DNA from: Ianthella basta
Lineage: Eukaryota > Porifera > Demospongiae > Verongiida > Ianthellidae
Reading direction: 5' to 3'
DNA length: 64,000 bases
NCBI GenBank assembly: GCA_964019415.1
Contig: OZ025871.1
Location: forward strand, 5,114,129 to 5,178,128
The notes beneath the pieces were generated by a model. That model ran no database searches and was not told where the DNA came from. It was given only the letters and a program-made list of their open reading frames with translations. Below, one piece after another: positions 21,913-59,611 of this stretch. Both the position numbers and the translations under genes were made by a program. Numbering within the stretch: position 1 is the first letter of the stretch; every line of letters begins with the position of its first letter.

Positions 21913-21949
21913 GTAGGTAGTTGTTGTTAAATGGACAGTTTACACAGTT

Positions 21950-37738: not shown

Positions 37739-38404
37739 TGTGGAGGGAGCCAACAAGACACATCACACAATATATTAGAAACTGGTACAACACAACAAGA
37801 TCATATGGAAATTAGGACTACAGTGAAACCTGTTTAATGAACCACTTCTGGACCAGAAATGTCTGACCTTGCAACCAAGGAGGAGCTGCTTTAAGATGTA
37901 AAACAATTCTGAGGATGCAACAGTGCATGTGGACAAATCATATAGCTAGCTAGCTACCTGGTGTGCCTTCTGATTAGCTAATAGGCAATGGCAAAAGCAA
38001 ATGTAGAGTGCTCCCTCACCAGCAATGAAGGGGAGAAGCAACTGCTAACAGGGGATGATGGTGTGGTGTTCTTTGAGTGAGTCTTAGTGGTTAAAAGTAC
38101 AAGTTAGTCGACGTGTCCTTGCAATGTACGTATCTGCTGCCAAAAAACTGCTCCATACTTCTTCCTAAGCTGTTGATCAATCAGTCTCTACTGACCGCCA
38201 CATGGCATTGACATGTAGTTAAGACTTCAGTGTGACCTCCGCACTTAAGTATGCCAACTTGCTCTGCCTGATGTTAGCTAGCTAGCAAGCTAGTTAGGCT
38301 ATCACTTGATGCTGAATGAGCTGGCTAGCTACCTCAATTGAAAACAGCTTCAAATGTGTATGTAGCTGCAGTATTCTGTAATGTTGGCAAATCCATTCAA
38401 TCTG

Positions 38405-38667
38405 TCAGCTCAGTCTCACACGCCAGACCCCATGCGAAAAGGGGATCTGGTGCGCGATTCCAGCCAAATCATAAAACAATGCAATCATGTCACATAGCTG
38501 CCATTCGGAATATCCCTCCACTTCTCTGGGTTACTGTGAACACGATTCCTATTGGGTGGCTTTGGATCCTTCCCCACAATCTGTGTTGTCACTTCGATAT
38601 CCTAGATGGTGCAATAAGTTATACAATTTGTCTTTCCTGGAATTTCCAACGTACTCTGATTGGTAGG
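38405..38667 (+). promoter_or_regulatory. Promoter region and first exon of gene C
   Basis: The exon ends at 38667 before GTGAGT and is paralogous to the first exons of genes A and B; intron sequence behind it (38,700-38,900) matches that of B. An imperfect hairpin CGCCAGACCCC ... GGGGATCTGGTGCG lies at about 38,421-38,455. Start of transcription unknown. Confidence 0.5.
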
Positions 38668-38967
38668 GTGAGTTTTATCAACCGTTCACCGCCTGCCTGA
38701 GAATCGTATCTACACCCATCAAACGTCGCCCTTTACTGAAGTGTGGTGGCTCTAATCTCGCTTGCTTTCTCTGTTAATCATATTTTGTCATGTCTTTTGT
38801 CTGTATATACGCTATGTTACCTGTTTGTTTCATGCCGCCTTCTTTACACGTGTAGTTAGCTATGCTGTGTGTTAGATAGCAAGTAGCTAGACAGATATAT
38901 TGGTGACGTGCATTAGTATGAGCTATAAGGTCTCAATCCAGCTCCTCATTCTGTCCTGCTGTAGACC

Positions 38968-41900
38968 ATGAGACCTGATCGGTGTAGAGTGTATACTGCA
39001 CCTGTCCGCCGCCTCCCTCATACACCCTACATCCTGGTCTACTTCAATGATGCCACACTCGGACGTATCGGAGAACAGATGAATGTCCTTCTGCTAACAC
39101 AGACTATTGTTGTCTTCATTCTGTATCTACTCCTTTTACTAACACTGACAGTTGTTCTCAGTCTGTATTTTCTATATCTGTTGGCTGTGGAAGAGCTCAG
39201 CACATCTTCAACACCATCGATAGCAGATAGTGGAATGCTAATATCAGGTAGGTGCAATGAGTGTTGAATGTACAATGGTTAGGGGAGGGAGGAATCGGGT
39301 AGTCCTGTGTATGTTACCAACCTGCTGTTGATAGACCTCACTGACTTCATACACTTTGTTATCCAGTTGCTGCTATTGGCATATTATATGGTATGACCTC
39401 ATCTGGAGTAATGCACATTGATTTCTTCACTTCCTTGTGGGTGGATGAAATGTGAGCAGTTAATGATATCCACTCTTTCTGAACTACCATTCTCAGTTGT
39501 GCAGACATTTTATGGAGTTTGTATTGGAACTGGTGACTTTGAACCACTGCCAAACATGTGCCTACATGTGATGATATGGATACGTGATAAGGTGAGTAAG
39601 AGTGGCCGATGTGCTGTTGTGTGGTCATGTCAATGTGTTGTATGCTGCAGTCAATGCATGACTCCATTCTTGTAATGTGTGATCAAGAGTACACTGACTT
39701 AGCATAGGCAATTGCAATCACAGAATGCAAGACATGTTTCCTAATGATCTTAGTACGTACAAGCTGATTTGCTAATAATCATGGCATAAAGAAAGCCGCT
39801 AGTTTCCACTAACTTGGCAGGTGAATTGCTCACTGCAGCCACTGAACAACTCGCATAGTGCAAGGTCTGCTCTATGTTAGTGGGACCTTGTCATCATTCT
39901 GTGCTGGCCTTAATGGTGTGGTCTTTGGCTGCTGTATGTTGGCTAGGTGGTTTATAGGGTGAGAAGGGTGAATAGGTCAGGTTGGCTAGTTGGCTAAAAC
40001 TCCACTGTAGGGTGTAAGGCAGGGTCTAATACCGGCCAAGTGATGGCTTTTCTCTCCCTCACCTATCTGTTTCAGCCATGGCTTATGCATTGGGTTGGTC
40101 ATTAGTAATTATAATAATTAATACAACAGATTATAGCATCAATTGATTATCCCAATACAGGCACATTTACTCATGTGTGTATACACAATCCGACCATCCT
40201 GATAGCACCTGCAATCATCATTGATCGAGACTCTCACTTCTGTTGCTTGCGTGTATATGCCCTGGAGTGTCTCCTTCATTCAGGACTCAATGTTGAATAC
40301 ACATGATACGATTAAGTTGCTGTACAATTTTGCTAATAATGTATGTACATACTGTGGTCACAATATACTGCAACCGCCAACTAACATAAGATGCTAGTCA
40401 CCATATGGTGGAAGTGATGGTGACGGTAGCGGGGATGTTCATACTGACATTACACAATGTGAGCATTTGGTCACATGACTGAAAATGGCCGATATCATGT
40501 TTCTTGTAATTAGCTTGCACCATTTTCAGCATCTTCAAGGATCCTTTTGGTCCTCCAGTGTGTTGTTTCTTGCCAAGAGCATCTGCATAGGAGTGCAGGA
40601 TTGCAATCCAAGGTGTTTTCTGTGGTTACAAACCTAGTCAGTAACACCTGACAGTTTCCTTTATCATCACCCCTGTACTCGGTGTTGTGTTGTCACCCAC
40701 ATGGTACCATTGTTTGCAACATACATTTCATCCACTAGTTTCTACCGGTCATCACCATCACTTTGACTGTCATTGTCACCTTGATGGTAGATAACATGTA
40801 GTGTGACTGACAAATTGTGACCGTAATGTCACCACTATTTCTACTGCAGTGTTATTGCTGCCTAAAGTAGCCTACCTCCCCTAAACCCCTGCTACTATAT
40901 ACCAACACAGTACAGGGTACCTTCTTAGATCTGAAATATTGAATGACAGTAATGGTGCTGGTATCATACCGAAGTAGGCCATTATATTGTACTGTGTTAG
41001 TGTTTGTGGAACAGTCATGAACAGACTATTACTAACTGTAATGTACTGTTTCTTGTAGGTGTACATGATTCCTGACAAGGTGGGCAGTCTATCCCATCAC
41101 TTGCTAGGCAGGAAATGTTGCAAGACGTTTAAATTGGTTCTGAAACAGATGGCTGCACCAGTCGCCAAGTCCCTTCAGCAAGCTGTGGCAGTTGGTCTGT
41201 TCATCTACCAAGTCCTTTCATCACTTCTATCGATAGCGGCTCACTCTTGTTCAGCTGAGAGCAAGAGAAGTCACAGTGCAGCTTCATCAGCAGGTACAGT
41301 GAACGTTATGCCAGCAACTGGTCTTCCTAAATATGTATTGCATAATTATGTGACACATATTACACTAGTGATGTTTATTACTGTCGATTGTAGGGTCAAG
41401 CTGCCGGCACTGCAAGAACTGCATTTCCAAGTACATCTTTGCTGTGAATTCTTTGAGTGTAGTCATTACCTGCATTTCGGTTAGGAAGAGGTCAGTTCTG
41501 ATGGTAATGCACATCATGCTAGCTGCTGTCATTGTACGTTGTTGCCATGCATTATGTGATACACAAGGGCCCGTCACAGAAATGGAGCGGCTGGAGCAAT
41601 TTTTCATTTGAAGGCTGACCAGCCTATAGGTACCTGCTACTACCTGTACTGGGTTGGGAGACCACAGATGTGTTGAATAACGTGTTAACCATTGGCATAA
41701 AAGATTGGTTAGGATATAGAGATGTTTCAGGAATCCACAATGTATGTGTATAGAGGTGTCACTGTGTCTGAATAAATGTACTTCTTGGAAACCTAATGTG
41801 CTTAGGAAGCCCATTTAGTGATGAAATGCACGTATGATGCTTCCATCATACACCTTGTTCTTATTTCATTACATTCTTCCATGTTCCAATTAGATCTTGC

Positions 41901-44900
41901 CGTAATTTAGAGGTTGGTGTGGGTGATATGCTGTTAATGAATTAATTGCCTCATACCATGCAATTACTTGTGAATCAGATGGTCTGGTGTGATTTAATAG
42001 TGCCTTGATATGCCCATGGCTAAGTATATATCATATGCAGTAGGACCCCTCTAATGTGGACACCCTTTGGAACAAGAAAAGTGTTCTCATTTCAGGAGAA
42101 GCTTACATTTGTTGAATAGGATGGGACAATTAGCAGTGTCCACATTGGGGCAGTGTCCACTTTTCAGGGTGTCCACAGGCTGAGTTCCACTGTAACTATT
42201 TTAGCTGCCATATCTCCTGGTGAACTGAATATTGGAACGTACTTGCTGATCCATACATTATTACATAGCTTCAATTTCATTGAATAGAGTTTTGCTATAC
42301 TATCTCTATTCATAATGTATCAATTTTTGTTGAATGCTATTTATTTACTGTATTGTGCAATTGTTATGTAACCTCTGTGCTAACAGATTTTACTATTTCT
42401 ACTTTCGTAGCTGCGGAATGGACCAGATCATTTTTAATGCGTTAGCTGGTGGGCTAGCTCAACAAGTGCAAACAGCCAAGAAGGGTGCCAGAAGGAAGTG
42501 TGGTTGTTCATCAAGGTCATTCTCCATTCAGTGGACCTATGAGATACCAGTGAGTACAATGACACTCCAGCTGCAGCTAGCACAGTGTCATGTTTGTGTC
42601 GATAGTCATTTCCATCACTCCTTGTTACGATGCTCTCCTCACAGGTCCTACCCTTGTTGGCTCAGGCTGTATCTGTTACATTTCTCAGCCTCCTGTTGAT
42701 CTTGGCTGGAGATGTAGAGGTCAATCCTGGCCCTGGAAAGGGGAAGGAGAGGGCAGCGTCAGGTTTGTCATTACCTTGTTAGTTTTCTCAGTATACGTAT
42801 GGCACTGTGACATTGGTTTATTGTGGCAGGCATTGACGTTGGGTATATTGTAGGGCCTGGCAACATTTCAATTGCTTCAGACTTCATAATAATATAGCAA
42901 TACTAGCAAGAATGACCACTTCCGGTGGGCTTACCTGCTCTGGTGCATCATAATTTTATGCTGGCATTGATCAGCCTTGGACATGGCCGTGTGCATCAGC
43001 AGCAAGCAGTATTCTTAGCTGCACACACTAGTTTGCACTGCAGTTTGTGTTTGCCCCTATAATTATTGTTTTCAGTTAGGTATTCATTTGGCTTCATGTG
43101 TGTAATGATGTATATTTCTGTCTTGCAAATGGCAGCTCTCATGTTGTACTTCACCGTCTCTCAATCGAACGAAATGTGTTAATAGAGTGATGCTAATAAT
43201 AATGAAAGACTGTTTAAAGAGATTATCATGGATGAACTTTGTAACTGGCCTTACTCGTTGCTCTTTATCTGCTAGGCTCATAAGCATCTTTATTCCTACT
43301 AGCTGAATGCCCGCCCTTCGGGTGGGTTCCCAGCATATCGTTTAAAATTGGAGCGTTTAACCAATCGAAACCGTCCATTTAATTGGGAGCATTCCATGGA
43401 CTCGCTCCGTAAAACTCCGTGTGTACAGAAATTTACTTATGTTAATTCATTTCGTTTAAAGGAGTCCAGCGGCGAAGGCACTAACCACCTTAGGTCACCC
43501 CCCGTATTGCTGTGATATACTCTTCCACGTTTGGCGAAGATTGGTGAAAAATTGAAGGAGGAGTTCGTGCACAACCAAACACAATCTTATTCCTATCCCT
43601 TAGATATGGTGGCAACCGTAAAAGTGGCAAGAACTCGGATGGAAAGACCTTATACAAAATTTTGGCTCGGCGAGGTTAGTCACAGTAGGCCTCTTCGTAA
43701 TCCTACCACGTTTCGTGAAGTTCGGTCCAGAATTGAAGGAGATTATCCCGGACAACGAAAATGTGCGTTATGTTTATTATAGTAAGATTTCACCATGTAT
43801 CCAAAGAAGGCAAGTGTTTCTAGAAAAGGTTAAGTAATAAAATTGCAGTAGAAAGCTTACCTACATAACTGTTCTCCTGCGAGTTACAACCCCAAATACA
43901 AAAAGTTGAATGACCAGTTGGCCAATAATGCTGGAGGCAAGCAAATCATGGCATTATAACTTAGGGCAGGCTTTTAGCCAAAATACTCCTCCAGACTCAA
44001 AGTAACATTTAACAAGTACATCCTCATTCAGAGTGTTACGTAGATCAAAGGCAGTCAGCAAAGTATTTTGACAGTTTGGTAGGCATGTTTTCACTGGGTG
44101 ACTGGCTGTTCTGGAAGCTAGAAACTCCTGAGAACCCAACACAATGGCATTTTGATGTATCGTCAAGGCCATCAGCAATGCTGCATCCCTAGCTATCTAA
44201 ACTATTGAACATACACGACCCGGGGCAACTGCCAGCAAGTAGTTTGAGTTCCAGGGAAGAGGACAGTAGGAAGAGCCAACTACGGAGTGAAAGAGTGCAG
44301 ACAGTGGAGGGTAGTTTGAAGTTTTGGGACAGGTTGAGAGCTAAGTGGAACATGGTTGAACACAGTGAAGGGGAAAGGGTTTAAAGAATGTGGGACGAAT
44401 TCAAAGGAGGTATCTTAGTGGTAGTTGAAGAAGTGTATGAGAAATGTTGAAGAGATAAAAGAATTGGATTGAATGATTCTCCACTGGATGTTGGAGTAAG
44501 GAAGTAGAAGCAGCTATCAGGAAAAGAAGATAGCATACAAGATTTAGGTCCACATGAAAACTGATGATGCAAGAGATGGGTACCTTGGTGCTAAGAAAAA
44601 GCTAGACAAGTGGTAAGGAAGATTAATATATGGAATGGATCAAGTTTGGTGAGTTCCTCCAGCATGACTTTGTAAATAATCAATGGTAGTTTTGGGGGAA
44701 GATAAGTGCAGCAATGAAGGGGACGCAGGAAGTGGGGGAAAGTATGTGATGAGAATGAGCTGGTGATTTGTGAGGAGAGAGAGGTGAGGCCAATGGACAG
44801 CTGCAGCAAACGGTGCATGTGGTTAGGGAAGTACAAGGAAGAGAAGCCCAGCTGGAGGAGACTGTAGATGACATTACTACAGAGGAAGTACATAGAAGTA

Positions 44901-47900
44901 TTGCTAGCCAAGAGTTAAGACTGAGAAAACACCCACCACGGGTGTGTGGGATAAGCGGTGAAATGCTGAAGCCTGGGGGAGAAATACGTAGTAGTAGAAA
45001 TACGTAGTAGAAGCCCACGGGGAGGAAACTGTAGATGACATTACTACAGAGGAGGTACATAGAAGTATTGCTAGAGTAAAGAATAGAAAACACCATGGGT
45101 GTGTGGGATAAGTGGTGAAGTGCTGAAGGCTGGGGGAGAAATACGTAGTAGTAGAATGGTTGCATAGAATTATGAGCAAAGCATGGACGAGTGCATGGCA
45201 TGCCGATGATGGTGTCTTCCAGAAAACCGCTAGTGATCCCAGTACATAAGAAGGGTAGCAAACTTCAATGTAAGAACTGCCGAGGGATCAGTCTGCTAAG
45301 TATATCTGGTAAGGTGTATACTAAGATATTGTTCAGAGGATGAGAGACATTACTGAAGGGATGATATTGGTGGATCAATCGGCGTTCCAGAAGAAAAGAA
45401 ATTGTACGGACCAGCTGTTTACTGTCAGGATGTAAAATGAACAGGTTATTGCGAAAAACAAAGAAATGTTCATGGTATGTGTGGACCTAGAACAAGCCTA
45501 CAATGCCATAAACAGGGAGATGACATGGAATTCGCTGGAAGAGTATTATGGAATCACAATGCTTATTGACAGCAGTATGATCAATACACGTGAAGTGTGA
45601 GGCATGTGAGAAATTGTAAGGAGGTAAATCAAACTGGTTCCAGGTGGAGCAAGGTGTGAGGTAGGGTTGTGTGATATCACCATGTCTCTTCAATATGTGC
45701 ATAGACCACATTTTGAGGGAGGCAATGGAGAGGTTTAGTAGAGGAGTCAAAGTGGACGAAAGAAACGTGCAGCTTCTACTATTTGCAGATGACCTAATGC
45801 TGGTGGCTAAGAAAGAGGAGTATGTAGTGAGTATTCTAAGGATCTTGGATGATGTGATGGCGAAAAGGAATATGAAAATGAAATGAGGTAAGGCAATAGT
45901 TGTGAAAAAGGAGGAGGCTCATGCAATGTTTTGGTGAAGGGAATGGAGGATTGAGGAAGTGAAAGTGATGAAGTATCTCGGGACAATTTTCAATAAAGAA
46001 GAGTCATGCGAAGATGCAGTGGATGGTAGAATTAAGTATACATGCTGAACCATTGGGCACTGAAGTAGTAGGTCGTAGATCGGAAGGAACTAAGCAAGAC
46101 CACACAGTTGAGAGTGTATATATATGCTATCCTAAAGCCTACACTACTTTATGGCAGTGAAACGTGGACACTACAGACCAGGCACATGTATGAAGAAGCT
46201 GCAGGAAACAGTGATGAGATACCATTGAGGAAGTGTCAGGAATTGATAGGCTAAGAAGTGATGACATTAGAGAGAGACTGTGGCAGGAATGTGTTGTAGA
46301 GACTCTACTAAGAAGGGGCAATGGAGGAGGAAGATTGATGAAGAGGAGAGTATCGCAAAGACAGTATATTTGGAGGAAATGTCAGGAAAGAGACCAAGAG
46401 GGAGAACGAGACAAGATGGGAAGATGGCTCGATTTGACAATGTATACAGAACTATATTCATGAACTAGTTATATATGTAGGCATATTATTATTATTGCAA
46501 CTGTTCCAGGTATGTATGTATTCTAGCTACCTCCTGCCTAGGAGAAAGAGCTATTGCTGGTTTGATGATTGATTTATTGATTGAACTACATAATTATTTG
46601 TACACATGCACTATTATGTGTGACTTGATTATGGCAGAAGCACATAATAAGAAAAATGGAGGGAGTGCGCTCCTGATGCTAGTCATATATTATCGAAAAG
46701 AACATAAGTACAGAGAGTCACTACATGTACCCCTCAGATACCATGCACACAGGGCAGGATCAGGATCAGGATCAGTAAATCTTATTTAACATGGGGAACC
46801 ATTAGCCAATGGCTACTTTTAGTGGCACCTAGAAAACATAATGAAACAATCATATTTAGTTACAAATAATTATAATTATTATTATTATTATACAGCTGAA
46901 TAATTGAAATACTGAAATTGAATAAGTGTACATAGTGAAATAACAGTAATTATGTAAATTGATAATTGAATGAATAATCAGAAAGGGTTGGTTCTCTAAT
47001 ACCAGCTTCACAACAGGGTTGAAAACCTTGCCGACGTTTCGACCAGATGCTCTGGTCTTCTTCAGGGCGAAGATCTGAAGAAGAAGACCAGAGCATCTGG
47101 TCGAAACGTCGGCAAGGTTTTCAACCCTGTTGTGAAGCTGGTATAAGAGAACCAACCCTTTCTGATGCCTGAGCCAGCTGAGAAGCCCTCACTTCATGAA
47201 TGAATAATAAAATAAAATTAATAATTAATAATAATAAATGATGCTACAATATTACTAATAATATGGATAAGTAAATAAGAGACAACTAAAGCAGAAACTA
47301 TTAAAAACATGCAGCCTAGTCATCATTAGCAGCGGGGGAATAAGCCCCGCAAATGGCAAAATGCAATCTAGTCAATGTCGCTGGCAGGAAGCGATCCCAG
47401 CATGGAGGCCGCATAGCCCACTTGGATGGCGCTGGAGAGGCGCTGGAGCAGGTAGGCAAATGAACTGGGCTCTCCAGTTACAGACCTGAGGCATTTGCCG
47501 AGGTTTCGGAGAAAAGACATGGACTCAGGCCCTACTGTTCCACAGGTTTCAAAGGCTACAGGCTGGAACAGGTAGGCGTGATCCAAATGGGCATACTTCT
47601 TAGCCTTCCCAGACTCGGCAAGTGCAGCGGCTCCACCAGCCTCTCTGGCTGTAGTTGGCTTGTGAGAGTCACAAGAGGTGTCTACACATGTGGCGTCCCA
47701 CACAAGGAATCTTCCGTTGGACCAGGGTATCATTGTCACTCCGTCTGGGCGTTTGCCGTCTTCCCGGAACAGATTGGATGGTTCCAATCTGCTGGGTATG
47801 TTAGCAGAGGCCAGGGAGTGATGGATGATACTGTTTAGCATGTGATGACGGGGGACTCTCCCTTTGCTGAACCTACAGCTCAGCCCATGATGACCAAATT

Positions 47901-50900
47901 CATCTACAGGATGACTGCAGGAGCTGCAGGGGTGTGGTAGACAAATGGGAGCACCGACACGCAGGCCAATGGCTGTGCGAAGCGCATCATCTGACATGCG
48001 GAGGCCCAAAAAGGAGATTGGGAGTGCGTTAAGCCAAGCTCCAGACTCGCGGGAGCTTGCCCCGAGGATACGGGAACGGGAGGTCTGGTCAACACACCGG
48101 GCCAGGAGGTTGTCAAGGTGAAACTGGATAATGGGCAGGTCCCAAGACTTCTGATGATTCAAGTTGGTGGGGAGGGGGGTGTCTGCTGGCAGAGCACCCT
48201 TCCAAGCAGTGAGTGCACGGTCCTTGGAAATGTATGGGACAGACAGAAGGTGAGGTGGTAAGAGCTTTAACATGAGTTCGGAGGCTCCGTCAGCAGAAGC
48301 CAAAAAGGCAGACGGTGCAAGACTAGAGCAGCTCCGGAACCCAAGGCCACCCTGGTTGACAGGAAGGGTCGCTTGGCACCAAGACAAATCATCAAGTTCA
48401 AAGCAGATGTTGGTTATCCTGGAGACAATAGACCTTAATAAGTTGTCCCAAGTTTCCAAGAAGGGAGATGAGAAGGCAGGGGATGTCCGCAGGATGTGCA
48501 GGAGTTTTGGGATGGAGAAAGAATGGCGGAGAATGGTAATGGCGTCATGCATGGACAGATGGCACAGTCGCTCCCCATGCAATTAGCTTCAATTGATGTA
48601 GTTGTTCCTGCAAAGAAAGGTGCATGGCTGCACCACCTAATGGGGATCCCAACAATTGAGCATGCTCGACATCAGTGAACTGCAAATCAGGGAGAGATGA
48701 GAGGAGGGAGGAAACAAGGTTACAAATTAGCCTGCCTATACTGTCTGATCATTGCTATTGCATGCATGCTTGAGTCAAATGTCATGGCCATTGCAAACAG
48801 TATCTTGCAGCACTGTGCAATCAATGTACGTGGCACACAACTGGAGCCGGCAAATGGCAGTGGATAGCTGCCCCTGCCGAGCCGGTGATGCGATGCTTAG
48901 TGAGCAGGGCTGAAGGCTGAACTTAACGCGTAGCTAGACATGCACTTCATTCTTGTATTGATTTACTATGTAATAGTTATAGACCTCTTAGTTTGTGATA
49001 CGATGCATACACAGCACGAGACCCTCAGGCGTTTCGCTTGCTCGTAGCTACGTATACACATACACTTCTGTTCACTCTTGTATTGATTTGCTATAATATA
49101 AATGTAGAAGCTGCACCGTAGAAGCAGCAATATATTAGGCATATGTGAGATCATGCAGTAGCAGTTCTGTTTAAGTGTATAATGGAAAACCCAGTTGCCA
49201 GTACATTTGTTCCTCTTTCCCACTGTTATATCTCAGGGAGCAGCACTCAGCCCATAAGTACATGGAATGCTGATGCAGTAGTATCCCTGAGAGAGAAACT
49301 GAAACTTAATGTATTATTGCATATGGGACTCATTGATAAACTGGCGAAGGCAGCAGGTGGGTTTATGAGTCATTATGAAGAACAAGCAGTAAGAGAAGTA
49401 TCTGGTAACATTGAAAGGATGGATAGAGTCATTCACATTCTTCTTGGAAAGGGAGATGATGACTTCCTCACCTTCTGCAAGATATTGCGTGAGAGCAGCA
49501 ACAGTACCTGGGCAGATGAGCTGGAAAGGATGGCTGAATGGTTCAAGAATAGTGGAAATGGTATGTATAAATGAACATTGTGTGTGTGTGTGTGTGCGTG
49601 CGTGCGTGCGTGTGTGTGTGTGCAGGTAGAAGTGGTGTGTTCATGTGCATGTAATTGTGTGTGTGTATATGTGTATATAATTTTATGTGAATATATGTGA
49701 TGTCATTGCTCACTTATTCAAAGTCATGCTGTATGTATTGATTCTTTCACGGTGCTGAATTCCATGTACACCGAAAGCGTCGTGATATAAGTGATATTAT
49801 ATGCCATCTATGCTTTTTTGAAAGGCAGGCTTTAGAGAAAACCATTATATAAGCGCCCCTGAGCTGATTTATGCTTCTTAAATTCTGTTATCACCCTGCT
49901 GGCTTGTTCACACGTTTCACCATCACACGGTTAACATGGCAATGGGGTATGTATAATGCACGTACAACTCAGAGGAGGTTGGCCATGCTTTCAATTGCAC
50001 AACTCCATAATTATGTCACTATGCAATATGTAGCACAATGGCTGCAAGTGACCATGAAAGGAGTGAGTTGGCAGTTTTGTAAGTCTTGTCACTGCAGAAA
50101 AGGTGACTAGCTTCGCACACCCTCCCCTTGTTTCCTGCTATGCTTGCTTGTATGACAGCTTCCCATTGATAGCAGACCTAGAATGTGAACTGTGAGCAAC
50201 ACAGACATTAAGAACATCTTGAACTTACTCAAGGGCTCCTTTGGGCAGCAGACTACTGTAAAAATAAGCTTGTCTGGCTATATCACTGGTAATTTTCTCA
50301 TTTAAATGTCACTAGTGAAAAATAGAGACGTTAAGATCAGCGTTTGTGGTAATGTTAATGAGGTCATGTGACCTTTAATGACAGGGAGAATTGCTTTTTG
50401 CAGTTAGCCCCTGCAGGGCAATAGATTGAAAGGGTAATCACTGGATATTACGTCAAGCCTACCAACTACACCAGTATTGGTGTTTCAGTTGGCAACCAAT
50501 GATTGCCTCCCCCAGTCATCCAACAAAGATGGAAGAGCCACAGTCAGTTGTTTTGCCCTAATTGGGGCACATCAGTGTGGCATACTGATGGTTGATGGTT
50601 GGATGACTGGCTGCTTCTGTATCCACTACAAGTTAAACACTTGTGGTGGATACTGAGGCACCAAAACTGGTGTAGTTGGTAGGTTTGGCATAATATCCAG
50701 TGATTACCCTTTCAATCTATTGCCCTGCAGTGGCTAACTGCAAAAAGCAATTCCTTTTTCCTTTTCCTTTCCAAAGCCTTTCAACAATGCTTCAGTCGTG
50801 ATGACTGTAGCCTCCCTTGTCTGTTTCTGTTGAAACCACAAGTGTTTAACTTGTGGTGGATACAGAAGCAGTTGGTAGGTTTGGCGTAATATCCAGTTAT

Positions 50901-53900
50901 GACCCTTTCAATCTATAATGATGTGTATTGACGTCACCTATAGACATTAGTGTGTGAAGCACATATTTGATTAAGATTGTCGTTGAAGAGCTAAACATTA
51001 TCTGCAAAAAATGGAACTTGAATGAAGTTATGTTTTTCTTGTCAAATTTGTATTTAGAGAGCATTCACCTACAGCACAATCAGGAAACTTGCAGCCATGG
51101 AAGATCACTGCAGTTGGTTGTGGAAAACGCCATTCTATGCGAAGGCATTGCTCTACCCATATATACTAACCTTATGTTGGAATAGCTAGCTGCAAATGAG
51201 AACAACTTCATCGGAAACCACTAACGCTCACAGGCTTCATTTAATGTCAGAATTGCTGACGAGTCACCGTAAGGGTTGCGGTTATGTGATGCACGTGACT
51301 TTTGGCGACGTTCATTCAACATTGATCTTAACATCTCTACTACACTAAACATTTCAGTAGCTGATTCAACTAGTTTTGGTTTATAGAGTGTGTACTTAAC
51401 CCTCAGCGTGCATGCACCACAGGGTTACGGTAGTCGTCGGTGTTTGTCTGTCTCACCTTGTTCTTGCCCTACAGCCTACAAAGCGGCTTCAGAGCGACGC
51501 TAACAGCTTCAGTGCAACACTCACTCTAAAACTATCTGGGTGATTGCGCTAAAACGGCCGCATTCCAGAGCTATATAGTAACTGGACGTGTACGTTCGGC
51601 TGCAATGCAACAGGAGCCAAATGGAGAACTATATTGCACAATGTACCTGAGCAAGTAGTAGTTGACGCGCAGGGTGACAGCTGTATGGCCTGAAATTATG
51701 CAATAGAAAATGAATAATCATTAGAACTGTGAAGTGGTACTGGGACAGCGTGTAACAGAGAATTAAGCAGCGAGGAAGGTGCGCACAGTGTGTGAGGTCA
51801 GCTATAGTCCACATCGTGGGCAAAAGTGCGAAGTCAGCAAAACTCCACATGGTTTTAGTGTGTACAGCGAGGCTGCTTGCATTTTGAATGTATGCCCTTG
51901 TTTTACAGTGACACAGTGCACAGGGTTCTGCACTGTGTCACTGCAGTGCTCTCATTTAATCAGCTGGCGATGCATAAGATAAATTTATAGAATGGAATAG
52001 CTTAATTTCTGTATTCATGGTGCCTGATAGGTGTACTTGTGAAGGTCTTGTAAATATGGAGTATTATTCATAACTCTCTCTCAAGACATTAGCACAGACT
52101 AGAATAGTACACTACTAGCTTGTCTGCTTCTTCTCTTGTATTCTGCAGTTGTGGAAAGAGGAGGAATGGGAGAGGCTCCCTTGTCATTCAGTGGAGAGGA
52201 TAAGGTTTGTTAGCTTGGATGTTAAAAGTTGCTGAAAGTTGTCGAATGTGTATATGTGTAAATGTGTGTGTAGGTGCATGTGCGCTTGAACATGTATTTC
52301 TGTCTAATCTGTGGAAGATCAGCATCAACAGCCACTATATAATTATGTATATGCACATTTATAGGAAGATCAGCATCAACAGCCACTATGTATATGCACA
52401 TTTAAAATTAGAATGCCCTTCAATATTTTCTCTTACTATAACTGTGGCTGAAATATTATTATACAGTTATTTTGTGATTCCTTCTTATGTACGTTTTAAT
52501 CAGTCTGTGTAGTGATGATTGTAGCATGATTTATTTATTAATGGAAGTGCTACACACAGTATCATAAAATATAATATACTGCCAAATATAATATAGTTGT
52601 TTAAGACAGCATATTATAAGCTAAAGGGTCGGCTAAAGATCTGGAGGTTGCCGGTGCTGGTCCGGTTCACTGCCATTTTTCCCTTCCCCCCTCTTTCCTT
52701 ACCATGTGTAGTTCCGAACGTTGTCTTTCATTAGCGTCACCATGGTACATAGACCATCTTAATCAACATATTATAAGCTATAGTAAACTGGCAATGTCGA
52801 TAAAATTAAAATAAAAATCTATTGATGGTGCACTCATGTACACCCACATGAAAAAGATATCATTGTAAAGTAATTAAGTCAAAATCAGTAGGCTAAGATG
52901 TCCCCAGCATGGCTGCCACGTTCTTATGCTGTGCGGCCACTGAAATCTGCTGGAGTAGATACTGGTAGGCAAGCTCAGGCCCATTAAGGACTGGCCATGC
53001 AGCTGTGGGGCCTTCCTGTAAGGGTTCCGCCCCATTGTTTATACAGCGGATAGCTATACAAACTGTTTGTGTAAATTATGACCACGACTTCCTGTAAGCG
53101 TATATAAAGGATAGGGCCTAGGGACCTAATTAGTTCAAAATGGCGGACACCAAGCAAATGGCTAAGTGAATCGGAAACGACTCACATACGGAGAAGAAGG
53201 GGTACGTCTTTGCTCCTTTCGCAGTCATTACGCTATTCAGCACTACGAATCACGAGTTTTGGCCAAGGTGCTTGTTTGTAGAGGCTATGGTAGCTTTTGG
53301 AGAGGCATATTTCGCGCTGCAGGATGCTTTCGTTCAGCATCCTTTTGACCCGTTCTCGGCGCTGGTGAGTCCTACAGTGAAGCACCTACGTCACATTAGA
53401 GAACACAATGTAGTAACAAGGAGAGTGCAAAATTTATTCCTATTTGTCCAGGATTTGATCGCCGTATTTTCTGTTTTGGTATTGAAAATGGCTTCAGTTC
53501 GGGTACGCTTTCCAGAGCGACTGTTTCGCCTAGCCCTCAGCTGTGGGTCGCGCTTCACGTCCTGGACACTCTTCCACTCGAAGAAAACAGCAAAAGCTTC
53601 AGCTAGGTTGTACAAGGGGAAAGAAAGCGCATTACATTGTATGCATAAATCATCACGCCATTTTGTGTGCCTGTCCTTAACGCGCTTGAGAGGGGTTCAC
53701 CTGACTGCTGCTGGATTTGATGGCCAAGCTCCAGAAAAAAGGAAAAAAGGCAGGGCCTCTGAGCCAAAAACACCAGATGTTTCGACAGCCACTGGGATGA
53801 TGTGGTGAGTGCTGGCCAGCTCTGCATACTTGGCCCTATTCTTCTGTTACACCTGGTCAGCCACGGCCCCAGTACTCCCAGCAGCCAGGTCAATGCGGGA

Positions 53901-56900
53901 TGGGGCAAAGGTGTCGGGGCACATAGCGTCCCACATCGAAAGACTGCCATTCTCTTGTGTATATCGCAAAATTTTGTGACCTAAAAATTTCGCGAATCGC
54001 TGCCACAACAGGTGTCAGAAATGTTCGTGAATGAAAATTTCGCAAAGGAGACTCTACAAGGTAGACATTAAAGCCTTTTTAGTGTAAATAGCAGGAGCAA
54101 TCACTTCTAAAATGAAGCAAACGAAAGAGCTACACGCTGTTTGTTGATCAGCCATTTTATTATGACATCATGTGCATACACAAGTTATTATTATAACATA
54201 GGTATCATATGCATATAAAATTTGTGATAGAAATTTTCGCGAATTGCTTCATTTGCGAAATTCGCGAAAATTATTGGTTGCGAACATTTTGCAATATACG
54301 GTATCATGCTTTCAAAAATGGTCTAGCCGGCGTTCCGTGAGCTTCAATGCTTCAACCCTGCTGGTGATAGCTGCATCAAATTAATGGATACAGATTGGCT
54401 GATATAGGTGATCCCAAAAGAATGACATCCGTGGGGCTAACCTTACATAAGTCATGGGCCACCTGCAGTAGCTGCTTCCAATGAGTTCCAATCAGCTCTG
54501 TTTTGTGGTGATTGAGGTGTAGACCCATCTCCCGTTTCACCAACTGGAAGTCCTGAAGATCTCCTCTCTGCCTCCAAGTGGCCTGTCATCCAGGTAGAAA
54601 ATTCTGAACACAGGCTGCAGCTATAGAACTAGTGGATAGATAACTGGGCAGAACAGCAGAGATCCAAGTAGATCACCCTGCTGCACACCCTCAGCAGAAA
54701 GCAAAACAGCTTCCTGAAAGGAGAGGGTGGAGGGGGCAGAACAACAGGAAAACAGGTAAGGGTAAAGCTCTGGGATGTACTTACAGGCTGCTTCAAGGAC
54801 CTTGTCTCGCCTGACCATGTTAAAGGCATTGTTAAAGTCCAGTTTGGCAAGAACATGATCTATGGGCAACTCCTTCTGGTATAGCGGGCTGAATGGATTG
54901 CTGCTTCAGCTCCCAATAGCACATCATACCCTAGCTGCAGTGGTGACAGAAATGAGCCCATTTGGTTCTCGCAGATGTTGTGGTCTGAGACCATCTGGCC
55001 CCCCAGCAGAGCCCCTTGGAAAGGAATGGATGGCTTAAGCCACTTCATTCTCACTCACCACCAATGCTGCTTTCAATGCTTACCCTTTAGGTGCTGGTGG
55101 GAGGCATGCAGGTGTCTGGATGAGCAGCTGGGTGCTTGGACCTCAGGGTAGTAATGGTGGCTCCCTTCCGCAATAGTGTCCTCTGAACAGGCTAGGCAAA
55201 CAGCATCCCTAAAATCCCCCTCTTTCAACTTTGCTGAGACCCTGGTAGCAACAAGCTGGAATGCATCAGGATCATCTTGGTGTTTGGTGGGTGACAGAGC
55301 TGGGGGCAGATCCCTGGTAGCTTGTAGGTGGAGGTAGGTTGCTCTTCTCTGAAAGCCAACCAACCAAGTTCCAGCGGTGCCCTCCTCTCCTAGGTACACG
55401 AAGACAATGGTTGGAGAAATTCAGTAGGCACATCCAGGTGGCTACATCATTTGCCACTGTAACTCGTTCTTCTGTGGCTAACTTCCTTGGCTAGATTGCG
55501 TGAAGTCTCGGGAAGCTTCTTCAAAATTGGGATATGCAATCTTCCGGTGAAGACTGCCGGTGCTGTTGCAGGCTCCTGCGGTGGTGGATGACAAACAACA
55601 GCAGCAGCAGTGACAGCAGCTGCATGGACTAGGCCAATGGAGCTAAGTGCTTCTCCTGAGCCAGCGCATCGGTGCCTGACTGGTCCATGTACATGAATGG
55701 CGCCATCTCTCCTCACAGTCATAGTACAAAGGCAAACTGTACACCGTGCACGGGAGGCTGATTGCCCATCCAGGTCCGCACGTCCCTCTGACACGGCCAA
55801 CTTGTCCCACTGCCACAACTCTGCAGCAATTGATGCTCCCATTCAATGCCGAATCAATGCGGAATCAACTGCCCCGATTGCCACCCATCTGCCAACTTGC
55901 ACCTTAAATAGATAGTAACTTGATCATACTTTTGGACAATCAACCACACCAAGAAACACTTTTGTCAACTTGTTTTATATGCCTGATGAAGCCCGCGATG
56001 GATGAAACATTGCATTGAATGAACAAGTGTTTTCTTGTGTGCTTGATCCAAAAGAAGGATCAAGCTACTGTGATTCTTCTGTGTTCCAATTCATCTCAGC
56101 CTTCTGTGGTGTGAAGTTCATGTGCAGACATACAGTGTGAATGTGGTAAAGGCCTGATTAGCTGAGTAGAGTCAGCTCAAACACTAGCCAGTATGATCAC
56201 TAATAATTCAGATGTTTCAGCAGCACTAGCGCTGCTATCTTCAGTGAATAATGACACATGTAGGAGTGTATAAATATGGATAGTTGTGTGAGGCTTTAAT
56301 GAATAATGCTAACACTTGTTGAGGAAGAGTTTGAGCATTAATCACGTGGTAGACTTTGAGTGGGCCTTTGAATTCTTCAGCTGCAGAAATGGGTATACAA
56401 GTATCAAGTTAATTGCTGTTATTTATACCATTCCCCAACCAACGTCTGGACATGGTAATGAATCTCTGTTCTATTGAATTTATTAGCATCCCCACTCATG
56501 TCATATTCACTGATGAATGCAGCCAGCTGAAACATCTGAATTTATTGTAATGGACCTGGCAAGTATTATCACTAGAACTATATCATGACTTGTTAATGTG
56601 CCCACAGATGTTGTCATGGAAACATTTCCATTTATGCAGTTATAATTACCTGTGGCTTCTATTTTGTTGTCACTATAGCTGGGACATTATGGTCAGAGAG
56701 GGAAGTATCTCATCATACAATACAGTAATAAAACTGAATCGTTAATTTGCAGAGCACATGTTTGGCAATTAACTTATTAAAATGTGCAATATAGCCATTG
56801 AAATTCATTACTCATTGTATACATAACTAGGCTTGCTAGACGATCCCTGCATACCTGACTGACTGATTGACTGCATACCTCTACAATCTTCTCCTCCACG

Positions 56901-59611
56901 TAACGTTACAATTAGCTTGTTTGCATCCATGGCTTGATTTTTGCTGCTCCACAAGATATCAATTGATCAATCAATCAGTCAATCGGTATTATTAGAGTGC
57001 ACCACACCAAATGGTGCTAGGACACAAAAGGTCTAATGCAGCACTAGAACACAAGTATAACTACCAGGGATAGTTCAACAGAAGGAAAAAGAAGAACAGA
57101 GTTGGGAGCATGGACAAAAAGGCATGCATGTGCTTACACGCCAAAACAGGCACACCACATAGAGCTAAGATACTTTAGAATCCTAGGATCAGCGCATGCT
57201 AGAGACAGTACAATGGCAGTCTGTTCACTATGACTCTGCTCTTAAAATCTGTCCCAACGATTGGCTTCTGTTATCAAAGGCTGCCTGAGGTGGTCCCAGG
57301 CAGGGCACTGTATTAGCCAGTGGCAGACATCTTCCACCTCTTGACACTGGCATTCCTTGCATACTCTCTCCTCCCTGTCCATTCCTTGCCACCTTCCAAC
57401 CTCTATCTGAAATTGTGCTGTCCTAGAAATGGCCTCTGATGCCCATTTCATTGAACGAATCAGTCAATATACATGAAGCAATAGCATCGCGTAATGCTCA
57501 CAGACGGGGAGATGACTGGAAAGTGATTTGTTTGGGTCAAATGCGCCTGTTCTGCTTTTCCTCTAGCTTACTCCTCTGACTTTTTGTATTCGCTACTGCT
57601 GGCCAGCATGCGAGGCCAATTTCCATTCCAGATTTTGCTATATTATATACATAGATTATCAGCTTGCAATACCACCTAATGTAATTTTAAATGATAATGA
57701 CTCATGTCCTCATGCTGCATGTACAGAACACACTGCAGTGTACACCAGTGCTGTCCTTTCTTTACTTTAATTGATATAATCAGTGTGGTGGTATAATTCT
57801 AGGCACTAAGCAGCAGTACGCAATTTTTTTGCATAGGTGCGTTTTGGATGGACTGTAGACACAGTACCACAGTTTTAATGTAATTGTACTTGAGTCTTAG
57901 CGTGCAGCATGCCTTTCATGTTAAATTTCATTTGCATCTTCTGTAGATGATACTACAGTTTGCAAAGAATGTAGAAGCCTACAATGATGACATGCAACTT
58001 GTACAAGACAATTTCTGCAAGGATCAGACAATGAAGTTTGTTAAGCTTGCAATGGCTCCATTCAAGTTGGACTTTGAGAACCAGCAGAAGAGATTTGTTG
58101 AAGCAGTGTGCGATCCAGAAGGTGTGGACAAGGTGTTAACTCTTGTCAAAGGCAAAGTGAAGTATGATGATCTTCCTGACATGATTAGACAATACAAGCT
58201 CTTAGTCCTAAGTGGTGCTCCTGGTGTTGGAAAGAGCACACTAGCACGGAAGTTGTGTCAAGATATATCTAAAAAGTGTAAGCAACATGACTATCAATTG
58301 GTGCTTCTGTTGGAGCTTCGTAACCTTATTGGTTACGAGGGTAATACCGATGAGTTTCAAACCAAACACTTGCTGGAGCACTTCAGTGGCCTGATGTGTG
58401 AAGGATGCACACCAGAGATTGTGGCTAGAGCAATTGAAAGGGACTTTGGTAAGGGAGTTTTACTCATCCTAGACGGCTACGATGAGCTGTCTGCCCCACT
58501 ACGCCAGTGTCCGTATTTCCATCACCTTCTGACACACTCCCTTCAGTCTCCTCTTTCCAGCTGTGACATTGTACTAACATCCAGGTCAATAGTCACCAGT
58601 GAGATATATCAGCATATCAGTAAATCTACGGCTGCTAGACATTTTGTGAACGTGGAGGTGCTTGGATTTGGAAAGACTGAAATAAGGAATTTTGCTCGGC
58701 AGTACTTTGAGGAGCGTAACCGACCTGACCTGCTGGACTCATTTCTGGACAGGTTGGAGCAGTTTCCCCAAATGAAGAGCCTGCACTCTAACCCAGTGGT
58801 GCTGTCCATAATTTGTGTTGTTTATTTAGCCCAGGAAAACCTCCCCCGCACTCTGACTGAGGTGTATGATGCTTTTATCTGTGAGAAGTTATTGCTCAAT
58901 TCAAGGTCTTCAGATACTCAAGCTGACTCGATCTTACACCTTTCTGATGATCATGATTTTTATCAACTCTGTAGCATTGCTTGTACCTGTGTTGTTGAAC
59001 AGAAGGTCATATTTACATCATCAGAACTCCAGTGTCTTTCATCAAGGTACTCAAATCGTGAAAGTGGGTGTGGTCTCTTAACAGCACGCCCTGTGGGCAA
59101 GTTGAGGAGTACAGTAGCAGCTGTGGACAGCTTCTACTTTCTCCATCTGACCATTCAAGAGTTCCTCAGTGCCGTTCACATTTCCAGGCAGGATATTTCA
59201 GTTCAACAGAAGATCTGGGACAAGTACCTTGGACAACCCCACATGGCTCAAGTGTGGAAATTCTTTTGTGGGATAACCAAACTAGAGAACTTTGATGCAC
59301 TCCACCTCACCTCAAAGGTGAAAGACCAGGACTTCTTATTGCAGTCACTTTATGAGTCACAAAATAGTGATGTGACTAGTGCTGCAATGAAGAATGCTTT
59401 CAACGACCACCCAAAAGTAAAGCCAAGGACCCCTTACAGTGCTGTGGCTTATGGTTACTGTCTACAGCAACACCAGAGCATGAAGAAACTCGCTGTTGTC
59501 TGTCGTAAAGACATTCGAGTTTACATTGGTAATCTTCTATCTCCAGTATTCCAATCAGCTTCTGGCTTGCATCTGACACTCAGTAGATGTCACCCTAAAG
59601 GTGAACCTTGA
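38968..59611 (+). CDS. Membrane leader-2A-CARD-NACHT protein (NLR-type), gene C
   Basis: Coding exons: 38965-39247 (ATG 38968), 39497-39591, 41059-41293, 41394-41490, 42411-42549, 42645-42762, 49237-49560, 52149-52204, 57947-59611. All borders are AG/GT and every junction phase agrees (1, 0, 1, 2, 0, 1, 1, 0), giving 1,002 residues without a stop. Residues 39-74 are strongly hydrophobic; 204-231 hold CRHCKNC and a second hydrophobic run; 283-303 a third, running into GDVEVNPGP (304-312, 42708-42734), the 2A motif. 322-429 is a CARD (SLREKLKLNVLLHMGLIDKL, GGFMSHYEEQA, FLTFCKILRE). The last exon carries NACHT: Walker A GAPGVGKST (538-546), Walker B VLLILDGYDEL (619-629), sensor LTSRS, and the NLR motif FYFLHLTIQEFLSAV (844-858). 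It stops near YSAVAYGYCLQQHQSM, where a first leucine-rich repeat normally begins. Known role of the family: cytosolic pattern sensing and oligomer signalling. The 2A should release a separate N-terminal product of about 311 residues. An optional small exon near 39367 is possible. Confidence 0.75.
39592..41058 (+). other. Gene C intron, no further feature
   Basis: AT-rich intron of about 1.5 kb. No repeat or exon is supported. The short block at 39367-39451 in the preceding intron has an acceptor and an open frame and might be an alternative exon, but does not fit the phases without a second donor choice. Confidence 0.5.
42708..42734 (+). other. 2A recoding motif GDVEVNPGP in gene C
   Basis: The motif matches the conserved D(V/I)ExNPGP of 2A and 2A-like sequences, in which the ribosome omits the Gly-Pro peptide bond and continues. 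It follows directly on the hydrophobic run VTFLSLLLILA. It lies at residues 304-312 of the chained frame. It differs from the A/B version (GDIETNPGP), so it is not a recent copy of them. Confidence 0.85.
43301..43789 (+). repeat. Dispersed 489-bp repeat, copy 1
   Basis: Begins AGCTGAATGCCCGCCCTTCG and continues alike with 63304-63786 to a shared TTATA.TAAGATT end. A CCCGCCCTTCGGGTGGG stem-loop marks the start. The paralogous segment at 23,640 lacks it, giving an empty site. No intact open frame. Probably a SINE or a 5'-truncated LINE-type repeat. Confidence 0.75.
44270..46470 (+). mobile_element. Non-LTR retrotransposon (LINE) remnant, forward
   Basis: Fragments in order: EEVHRSIAS ... GISGEMLKPGGE (region before the RT), MSKAWTS, VIPVHKKGSKLQCKNCRGIS and LLSISGKVYTKIL (fingers), DQSAFQKKRNCTDQLFTVR, FMVCVDLEQAYN (motif A), PCLFNMCIDHILREAM, LLLFADDLMLVAK (YADD-type box at about 45780) and LLYGSETWTLQTRH near the end. 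It has many stops and shifts. A 130-145-bp internal tandem duplication (44855-44999 and 45022-45155) repeats the GEMLK region. The general type resembles RTE/L1-like endonuclease LINEs; the clade is not fixed. Confidence 0.8.
46980..47163. repeat. Near-perfect 84-bp inverted repeat
   Basis: Arms 46980-47063 and 47080-47163 differ at about one base around a 16-bp centre. Each arm holds GACCAGAGCATCTGGTC followed by GAAACGTC. In RNA it would form a long hairpin. It lies about 200 bp beyond the 3' end of the reverse LINE at 47368-48582. Confidence 0.9.
47368..48582 (-). mobile_element. LINE ORF C-terminal part with zinc knuckle and PD-D/E nuclease
   Basis: A continuous 404-codon reverse-strand frame. 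The early part is RT thumb (VNQGGLGFRSCSSLAPSAFL, DQTSRSRILGASSRESGAW). It is followed by CSSC....FGHHGLSC (CCHC-type) and then RPDGVTMI ... FLVWDATCVDT, the RPD and D/E spacing of the restriction-like endonucleases of R2/R4-type LINEs, which nick the target. It ends GYAASMLGSLPASDID. The upstream RT catalytic core is absent, so this copy is 5'-truncated. A second, older copy of the same family lies at 52.9-55.9 kb. Clade assignment is inferred from the nuclease type. Confidence 0.75.
49237..49560 (+). CDS. CARD exon of gene C
   Basis: Acceptor TATATCTCAG, phase 1 at both ends. It encodes SGSSTQPISTWNADAVVSLR and the full six-helix CARD-like region. Its equivalent in gene B (32986-33312) has the same phases and nearly the same length (327 versus 324 bp), with about half the residues alike. 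DFLTFCKILRE.....WADELE is the helix 5-6 part. Listed separately because it lies far from its 2A exon. Confidence 0.75.
50389..50752. mobile_element. Foldback/MITE-like element with 87-bp inverted ends
   Basis: Arms 50389-50475 and 50666-50752 are complementary with few mismatches. The tips read AATTGCTTTTTGCAGTTAGC and its complement. The centre contains another hairpin (GTATCCAC ... GTGGATAC). Part of the right arm recurs at 50869-50918 with several changes, as if an older copy abuts it. No coding capacity. Confidence 0.8.
51907..51942. repeat. Perfect 14-bp hairpin
   Basis: AGTGACACAGTGCA and TGCACTGTGTCACT flank an 8-base loop inside a gene C intron, about 200 bp before the linker exon. 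Confidence 0.8.
52149..52204 (+). CDS. Linker exon of gene C
   Basis: 56 bp, acceptor TTCTGCAG, donor GTTTGT, phase 1 to 0. It encodes VVERGGMGEAPLSFSGEDK. The linker exon of gene B (33911-33966) has the same length and phases. It joins the CARD to the NACHT exon. Confidence 0.65.
52617..52770 (+). repeat. SINE-like repeat tail
   Basis: The sequence from ccttaccatgtgtagttc to tagaccatcttaat recurs at 61510-61577. In front of it stands GGTTGCCGGTGCTGGTCCGG then TTCACTGCC, faintly like the B box of a tRNA-derived promoter. Possible SINE; no A box found. Confidence 0.4.
53026..53690 (+). mobile_element. About 0.66-kb insertion within the LINE
   Basis: LINE protein sequence breaks off at ...QQQSGEP and resumes at LQEGPTAAW. 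The DNA word gggttc stands at both borders, suggesting a short target duplication. Inside, on the + strand, TATATAAAGG (about 53100) is followed some 40 bp later by AAAATGGCGGACACC (a YY1-like start region). An open frame 53272-53808 runs out of the insertion into the LINE, so it is not a real gene as a whole. Nature unknown. Confidence 0.5.
53955..54303. mobile_element. MITE with GTATAT.GCAAAAT ends
   Basis: The left end GTATATCGCAAAATTTTG and right end CATTTTGCAATATACGGTA are inverted repeats. The interior carries several AATTTTCGCGAA palindromes. It sits inside the LINE. AT/CG-patterned repeats of this kind also occur at 30,540-31,170. Confidence 0.7.
55861..57241. other. Intron stretch with hammerhead-like hairpins
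   Basis: 55983-56008 (CTGATGA ... GAAAC) and the two arms of an inverted repeat (56205-56250 and 56504-56543, with CTGA(A/T)GA ... GAAACATCTGAATT) lie here. Otherwise AT-rich; no exon seen. Confidence 0.5.
57242..57451 (-). mobile_element. LINE C-terminal fragment
   Basis: The reverse strand reads FQIEVGRWQGMDREERVCKE then CQCQEVEDVCHWLIQCPAWD. R.C..C...EVED..HWL..CP is the cysteine/histidine ending of many LINE reverse-transcriptase proteins. About 70 residues remain. Confidence 0.75.
57947..59611 (+). CDS. NACHT exon of gene C
   Basis: One 1,665-bp exon (acceptor CATCTTCTGTAG, phase 0) holds the whole NTPase. In exon numbering: GAPGVGKST 90-98, VLLILDGYDEL 171-181, sensor TSRS 211-214, SNPVVLSIIC 281-290, FYFLHLTIQEFLSAV 396-410, stop after codon 554. 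A single large exon for NACHT is usual for NLR genes. The end at KGEP comes within what would be the first leucine-rich repeat. No LRR-like sequence follows up to 64 kb. Confidence 0.9.
   Translation: MILQFAKNVEAYNDDMQLVQDNFCKDQTMKFVKLAMAPFKLDFENQQKRFVEAVCDPEGVDKVLTLVKGKVKYDDLPDMIRQYKLLVLSGAPGVGKSTLARKLCQDISKKCKQHDYQLVLLLELRNLIGYEGNTDEFQTKHLLEHFSGLMCEGCTPEIVARAIERDFGKGVLLILDGYDELSAPLRQCPYFHHLLTHSLQSPLSSCDIVLTSRSIVTSEIYQHISKSTAARHFVNVEVLGFGKTEIRNFARQYFEERNRPDLLDSFLDRLEQFPQMKSLHSNPVVLSIICVVYLAQENLPRTLTEVYDAFICEKLLLNSRSSDTQADSILHLSDDHDFYQLCSIACTCVVEQKVIFTSSELQCLSSRYSNRESGCGLLTARPVGKLRSTVAAVDSFYFLHLTIQEFLSAVHISRQDISVQQKIWDKYLGQPHMAQVWKFFCGITKLENFDALHLTSKVKDQDFLLQSLYESQNSDVTSAAMKNAFNDHPKVKPRTPYSAVAYGYCLQQHQSMKKLAVVCRKDIRVYIGNLLSPVFQSASGLHLTLSRCHPKGEP

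Follow-up and report, generated by a model that had tools for sequence, protein, structure and literature searches.

To our knowledge, few cellular proteins have been described that make natural use of 2A elements, and for the sea-urchin NLRs among them the element is described as a short signal. The core motif of the element studied here is shared with the 2As found in non-LTR retrotransposons and FMDV-type viruses; in contrast to these, the present element is part of a spliced gene of cellular type and located ahead of a CARD-NACHT region. A 2014 study by Yuen and coworkers reportedly deals with sponge NLRs.

NLRs have been named among cellular 2A sequences (PMC11512398), and the closest described system is that of the sea urchin Strongylocentrotus purpuratus, in which about 35% of the NLRs (85 of 241) were reported to contain a 2A sequence, 14 entries having a 26-residue 2A at the N-terminus and the rest having it "within the N-terminal region" (PMC4981915). 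A sea-urchin NLR 2A of the core type considered here was shown to be active, and in cells the skipped product was found in the cytoplasm and the unskipped product in the exocytic pathway (PMC4981915). The locus described below has in common with these NLRs a D(V/I)ExNPGP motif N-terminal of NACHT, a hydrophobic, signal-like stretch in front of it and membership in a large family. It differs by a leader of 311 residues encoded in six exons, by the presence of a second leader type and by the occurrence of a 2A leader ahead of 55 of the 56 NACHT exons listed in the array described below, although the sea-urchin report leaves room for longer leaders in that species as well (PMC4981915). Predicted transmembrane NLRs have been reported for the sponges Dysidea avara and Amphimedon (PMC12909245). 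These share with the present genes a NACHT domain, predicted membrane segments and an expanded, partly clustered organization, whereas here 2A parts the membrane-like segment from the sensor; the term "2A-like" is absent from the main text of that report (PMC12909245). A description of a long membrane leader preceding 2A in an NLR was not found in the literature searched, which consisted mostly of papers outside subscription.

The DNA analysed, here termed the window, is a stretch of 64,000 nucleotides of contig C4 from a 209-Mb, 96-contig assembly of Ianthella basta. Its positions 38968-59611 contain nine predicted exons:

38968-39247, + strand, E1: start Met, basic N-terminus and long hydrophobic run; donor phase 1
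39497-39591, + strand, E2: phase 1 to 0
41059-41293, + strand, E3: phase 0 to 1; hydrophobic run at about residues 166-186
41394-41490, + strand, E4: phase 1 to 2; hydrophobic run 213-231; variant CRHCKNC
42411-42549, + strand, E5: phase 2 to 0; basic loop
42645-42762, + strand, E6: phase 0 to 1; hydrophobic run and 2A (LLILAGDVEVNPG/P)
49237-49560, + strand, E7: CARD-like effector exon; phase 1 to 1
52149-52204, + strand, E8: linker exon, placed by reading frame and splice sites; phase 1 to 0
57947-59611, + strand, E9: NACHT exon; possible donor after 59600, ahead of the in-frame stop

When the exons were rebuilt from the sequence, the original prediction of nine exons joining in phase over 20.6 kb was reproduced: every intron is bounded by GT and AG, phases agree from exon to exon, and the spliced frame of 3,009 bases comprises 1,002 codons with a single stop at its end; the frames of paralogs are mostly open. 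The proposed division of this frame by 2A into a leader and a CARD-like/NACHT part, with 311 residues through the Gly of NPG/P followed by 691, is likewise borne out. Exon order and splice phase, which are kept across many copies, support the view that the nine exons constitute one gene consisting of leader, 2A, CARD-like exon and NACHT. The E6-E7 intron of 6.5 kb and the join of E8 to E9 are predictions from the DNA sequence. Exon E9 starts with ATG right behind the acceptor TAG (window 57941-57950), so a translation start inside E9 is formally possible. Retroelement-like open frames were noticed by eye at 24815-28393 (- strand), 47371-48582 (- strand) and 45665-45886 (+ strand), the latter two within the E6-E7 intron.

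In the leader, the three hydrophobic runs predicted originally were found, together with a fourth that abuts 2A (about residues 38-78, 166-186, 213-231 and 281-309). With the threshold set to a mean hydropathy of 1.4 in 19 residues, five runs are counted in the window leader (the one at 85-103 being marginal), three in the leader of the remote locus L057, where none adjoins the 2A, and a single one in the leader of type II introduced below. The unequal number of runs and the presence of basic loops on both sides of the 213-231 run render the topology uncertain, which was counted against our preferred explanation. With hydrophobic runs as the feature observed, the leader may reside in a membrane or serve as a putative signal sequence. 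The N-terminal cargo, which had not been recognized originally, did not match a known family: a search with the leader of the window, here termed type I, gave no match to Pfam or NCBIfam at E up to 1 or to PDB sequences at E up to 10, and neither the joined exons of a C2-type leader nor the type II leader matched Pfam at E up to 10. CRHCKNC, named originally as part of the leader, is not a conserved feature: the middle position is W in 19 of 21 copies, R in one and C solely in the copy of the window. As a zinc motif, CRHCKNC was rejected on the same ground.

The 2A core GDVEVNPGP occupies residues 304-312, NPG ending at 311. It is identical in all 21 array copies compared and conforms to D(V/I)ExNPGP. 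For the exon containing it, E6, dN/dS is 0.12, compared with 0.45-0.75 for E1-E5. A DNA pattern corresponding to GD(V/I)ExNPGP occurs 355 times in the genome, where some of the occurrences may lie in retroelements, and the reversed pattern not once; positions were listed for the first of the 355, covering contig C2 completely. The arrangement differs from an N-terminal 2A leader of some 26 residues, because NPG ends at 311 and the upstream exons are conserved; as had been claimed, the leader exceeds by far the 26 residues described for 2A leaders at the N-terminus of sea-urchin NLRs (PMC4981915). Judged by this motif, ribosome skipping at NPG/P probably yields two proteins per message, and putative skipping might give the equal amounts of leader and sensor proposed originally.

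A hand-typed 2A query of 25 residues matched 51 places at an E cut-off of 0.001, and 30 of these form a single array on the + strand of C4 (3.95-8.20 Mb). The array contains 29 copies each of E1, with TGA in two of the 29 rows, and of E3. All 30 array 2A sites are preceded by E5 within 0.5 kb and by E4 within 4.5 kb; 28 of them have E3 at a distance of up to 9 kb upstream, and 27 have E1 at up to 16 kb. At C4 8.14 Mb, E1, E3 and E4 are present with no 2A among the listed matches. For comparison of exons, 20 of the 29 other array 2A sites were taken at 10 kb, plus short loci and the window. Loci L001-L008, which overlap with the window or with other loci, were kept out of the stop, dN/dS and distance counts but are contained in the rows on splice sites and lengths; copies with an exon beyond the fetched stretch were left out (e.g., E1 of L017 and E3 of L009).

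In-frame stops are confined to one of 23 copies of E1, with none in E2 (0/23), E3 (0/19), E4, E5 and E6 (0/21 each). All 23 analysed copies of E1 begin with M, and E2 has AG/GT borders and an open frame in 23 of 23. Each of the other two sense frames of E1-E5 is interrupted by a stop in all copies; a less clear control is given by E6, where one other sense frame is open in 21 of 21, and for the antisense strand, one frame of which is open in 21 of 23 copies of E2 and 20 of 21 copies of E4. Differences in exon length among copies are all -3, and intron lengths are not restricted to multiples of three. Splice dinucleotides are kept apart from the E4 donor, which is GT in 24 and AT in two of 26 rows, overlapping loci included. 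On account of these AT donors and the E1 stops, some copies may be broken.

The dN/dS values of 0.73 (E1), 0.46 (E2), 0.45 (E3), 0.71 (E4) and 0.75 (E5) suggest mild purifying selection on E1-E5. Mean p-distances between copies are 0.037 for E1, 0.074-0.088 for E2-E5, 0.039 for E6 and 0.074 for intron 5; the divergence of E2-E5 at the level of an intron speaks against a strong constraint on the leader outside E1 and E6 and, like the mild dN/dS, was counted against our preferred explanation. The copies are moreover not independent because of recent duplicates such as the unit at 6.83 Mb (C4:6834040-6844039, L012), which is 99% identical to window 37986-47983 at a distance of 1.68 Mb and represents either a recent duplication or a duplication in the assembly.

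Relatives of the type I leader also exist outside the array. Twelve 2A sites were taken there with about 2.2 kb each and searched with profiles of the array exons. The E3 profile matched five of these loci at E <1e-6 (best 3.2e-10) and a sixth at 0.0019, the E1 profile matched three (3e-5 to 0.0015) and those for E4 and E5 matched weakly (best 0.005); the E2 profile gave nothing convincing in the 12 loci, nor did the E3 profile in the C2-type loci L056, L057 and L059. Six remote loci were modelled from anchors placed by reading, E2 being outside these models. For L057 and other C2-type leaders, exons were identified by reading their order and pattern, and the link to the array E3 runs via the L054-type E3. 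In L057, a site in the phase of the window is present at every tested boundary of E1, E3, E4, E5 and E6. The other remote models contain most of the window-phase sites and sites in other phases too; an E4 acceptor in the phase of the window was not found in L049, L050, L054 and L060, and the same applies to the E4 donor of L058 and the E5 acceptor of L060. Missing and alternative-phase sites were counted against our preferred explanation, as was a dN/dS of 1.52 for C2-type E3, calculated on three sequences.

Genome searches with two remote E3 sequences returned 37 and 42 matches, the latter comprising 23 of the query's own type and 19 of the other two groups. These 19 cross-group matches (1.2e-6 to 8.4e-4; array from 1.2e-6, C2-type from 5.2e-6) tie the array, C2-type and L054-type groups together. 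In total, the genome contains at least 89 copies of E3 on 11 contigs, i.e., the array contig with 29 copies and ten more. On the C2 minus strand, a 2A motif lies 0.69-0.97 kb downstream of E3 in 32 of 33 copies.

With regard to the part following 2A, the predicted CARD-NACHT sensor was confirmed in its second half. The NACHT domain of E9 is clear (Pfam 8.5e-19, 68.4 bits, cut-off 26.7; "NLR family protein 1" in the PDB at 3.4e-7), whereas the CARD match of E7 reaches 14.9 bits, below the Pfam cut-off of 23.9, and was counted against our preferred explanation. In a PDB search with E7, Apaf-1 chains made up the top seven of nine rows (E 0.05-0.07), and an AlphaFold model calculated from a two-sequence input shows six helices at a mean pLDDT of 58.9; the effector domain is therefore termed CARD-like here, and weakly so. 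In E7 paralogs, the splice acceptor is kept in six of six and the donor in five of six.

The original description of the gene as complete is doubtful at the 3' end. This end reads AAAGGTGAACCTTGA in the window and in the class-1 paralog L067, and AAAGGTGAGCATAGG in L068, the sole class-2 paralog for which this end was fetched and in which GEP-stop is absent. The sequence AAAG/GTGAAC after window position 59600 corresponds to AAAG/GTGAGC in L068. As L068 has no stop at this point, the window may contain a splice donor after 59600, in which case the gene could extend further. No LRR was found in seven downstream ORFs of at least 85 aa, nor did scanning for motifs in the end of the window and the 10 kb that follow reveal LRR exons; LRR-like stretches seen by eye after one C2 NACHT had no Pfam match.

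The window contains a second kind of leader, termed type II, and a second CARD-like exon:

21498-21917, + strand: type II leader and 2A, the latter at 21876
31549-31953, + strand: type II leader with its own 2A, GDIETNPGP, at 31912; upstream of the second CARD-like exon
32994-33305, + strand: second CARD-like exon, 54% identical to E7, with AAAAAG/GTACTT after 33312 (phase 1)

The type II leader (MPISNEQWRVAVGLW...GDIETNPGP) is encoded in a single exon and is unrelated to type I. A genome search for it gave 107 matches, of which some are partial; its dN/dS is 0.44 on five copies. On the C2 minus strand, where 56 motifs were used and three beyond 6.6 Mb left out, 24 of the 56 2A motifs have no E3, and 23 of these 24 coincide with a type II leader. 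In the window, the 2A at 31912 lies about 1 kb ahead of the second CARD-like exon, and among the candidates scored (78 of 442) no NACHT exon was found between the latter and the type I leader. Three 2A leaders, two of type II and one of type I, accordingly precede the single NACHT exon found in the window, and together with the second CARD-like exon this means that several leaders could feed one NACHT exon.

Across the array, counts are lower bounds, because 150 of 368 CARD candidates and 78 of 442 NACHT candidates were scored. There are at least 56 NACHT exons in three classes (85-100, 56-57 and 54-55% identity), one split class-1 copy being counted once. Within this listed set, 55 of 56 are preceded by a 2A leader that lies closer than the previous NACHT exon, the nearest leader being 6.6-36.7 kb away. 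This nearest leader is of type I for 29 NACHT exons (14, 9 and 6 by class) and of type II for 26 (9, 2 and 15 by class). Window-like E7 exons (84-100%) occur 4.3-7.6 kb downstream of at least eight of the 30 array 2A sites. In four of 20 fetched array loci, the sequence behind the 2A exon resembles that of the window; in the other 16, homology of the leader ends just past the E6 donor, beyond which lies another conserved exon; this exon has a phase-1 acceptor in 16 of 16 and gave no CARD match in Pfam. Sharing the same splice phase, both kinds of exon appear to be joined to the type I leader.

On the basis of these data we favor the following explanation, to which we assign a probability of roughly 60%. 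The gene is one member of a large, tandemly amplified family whose product would comprise a membrane leader, a skip at 2A and a mostly cytosolic CARD-like/NACHT protein. Translation would start in E1, and the leader encoded by E1-E6, with several hydrophobic segments and basic loops, would be inserted in the membrane during synthesis. At the end of E6 most ribosomes would skip the Gly-Pro bond of 2A, releasing a membrane protein of 311 residues, and restart at Pro to produce a presumed cytosolic protein with CARD-like and NACHT parts, at least about 690 residues long, for which an immune role may be supposed. Ribosomes that do not skip would give rise to a membrane-tethered sensor. The sequence data show the arrangement of the gene, its conservation and the selection acting on the 2A exon; the remaining steps are proposed.

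The strongest competitor, which in our estimate falls somewhat short of even odds, regards the leader as a targeting device: the skipped fraction would set the proportion of membrane-bound or secreted vs. cytosolic sensor, and the released leader would have no further role. This function has been shown in cells for one sea-urchin NLR 2A (PMC4981915), and the intron-like divergence of E2-E5 with mild dN/dS, as well as the occurrence of two unrelated leaders before the same NACHT classes, would fit such a generic role. A 26-residue signal would, however, suffice for this purpose, and a six-exon leader maintained in at least 89 copies, with phases kept in a distant relative, would be costly.

More tentatively, and with a chance that we consider somewhat smaller, the leaders could be exchangeable cassettes, i.e., two unrelated membrane-type proteins, each with a terminal 2A and coupled one-to-one during translation with interchangeable CARD-like and NACHT modules throughout the genome. 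The leader would then be a dedicated membrane partner of an intracellular sensor, acting as anchor, guard or executioner, and some loci, including the window, would choose between leaders for one sensor.

A related and rather unlikely proposal is that the window as such is a compound locus in which alternative starts, one with type II leader and CARD-like exon (31.5-33.3 kb) and one with type I leader and CARD-like exon (38.9-49.6 kb), share one NACHT exon, so that alternative cargo and CARD are put on one sensor. It agrees with the single NACHT exon found downstream of two type II 2As and one of type I and with phase-1 donors behind both CARD-like exons. Furthermore, five of the 56 array NACHT exons have a type II and then a type I leader upstream with no listed NACHT exon in between (C4 5.13-5.17, 6.12-6.14, 6.83-6.85, 7.43-7.45 and 7.84-7.89 Mb), the first, i.e., the window, and the third, the 6.83-Mb unit, being recent duplicates. 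On the other hand, a single leader is the rule for array NACHT exons (one of type I for 24 of the 56 and one of type II for 21), and the additional leader may be a truncated duplicate.

We consider it improbable that 2A is inactive here and the product a single membrane-anchored NLR-like protein. Such a product would resemble the predicted transmembrane NLRs reported for sponges (PMC12909245), and the exon could be retained for its hydrophobic run, but it is difficult to see, without recoding, why the core should be invariant in all copies compared and why the type II leader, although unrelated, should end in the same motif. Least probable of all is that E1-E5 are a separate gene, as their large introns might suggest, or that translation starts at the Met of E5 with a short leader as in the sea urchin, a start that was rejected because this Met is I or V in seven of 21 copies, while the order E1-E6 repeats along the array and the tested splice phases recur in the compact relative L057.

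The favored explanation, a membrane leader separated by skipping from a mostly cytosolic sensor, would set these genes apart from the known short-leader 2A-NLRs, compared with which long, exchangeable 2A leaders appear to be new. If it is correct, 2A would be a lasting element of gene design, with long leaders of two unrelated kinds, and invertebrate NLR-like sensors would be linked to a membrane partner that is synthesized in fixed proportion to them. The direct question raised is what effect the leader has on the sensor.
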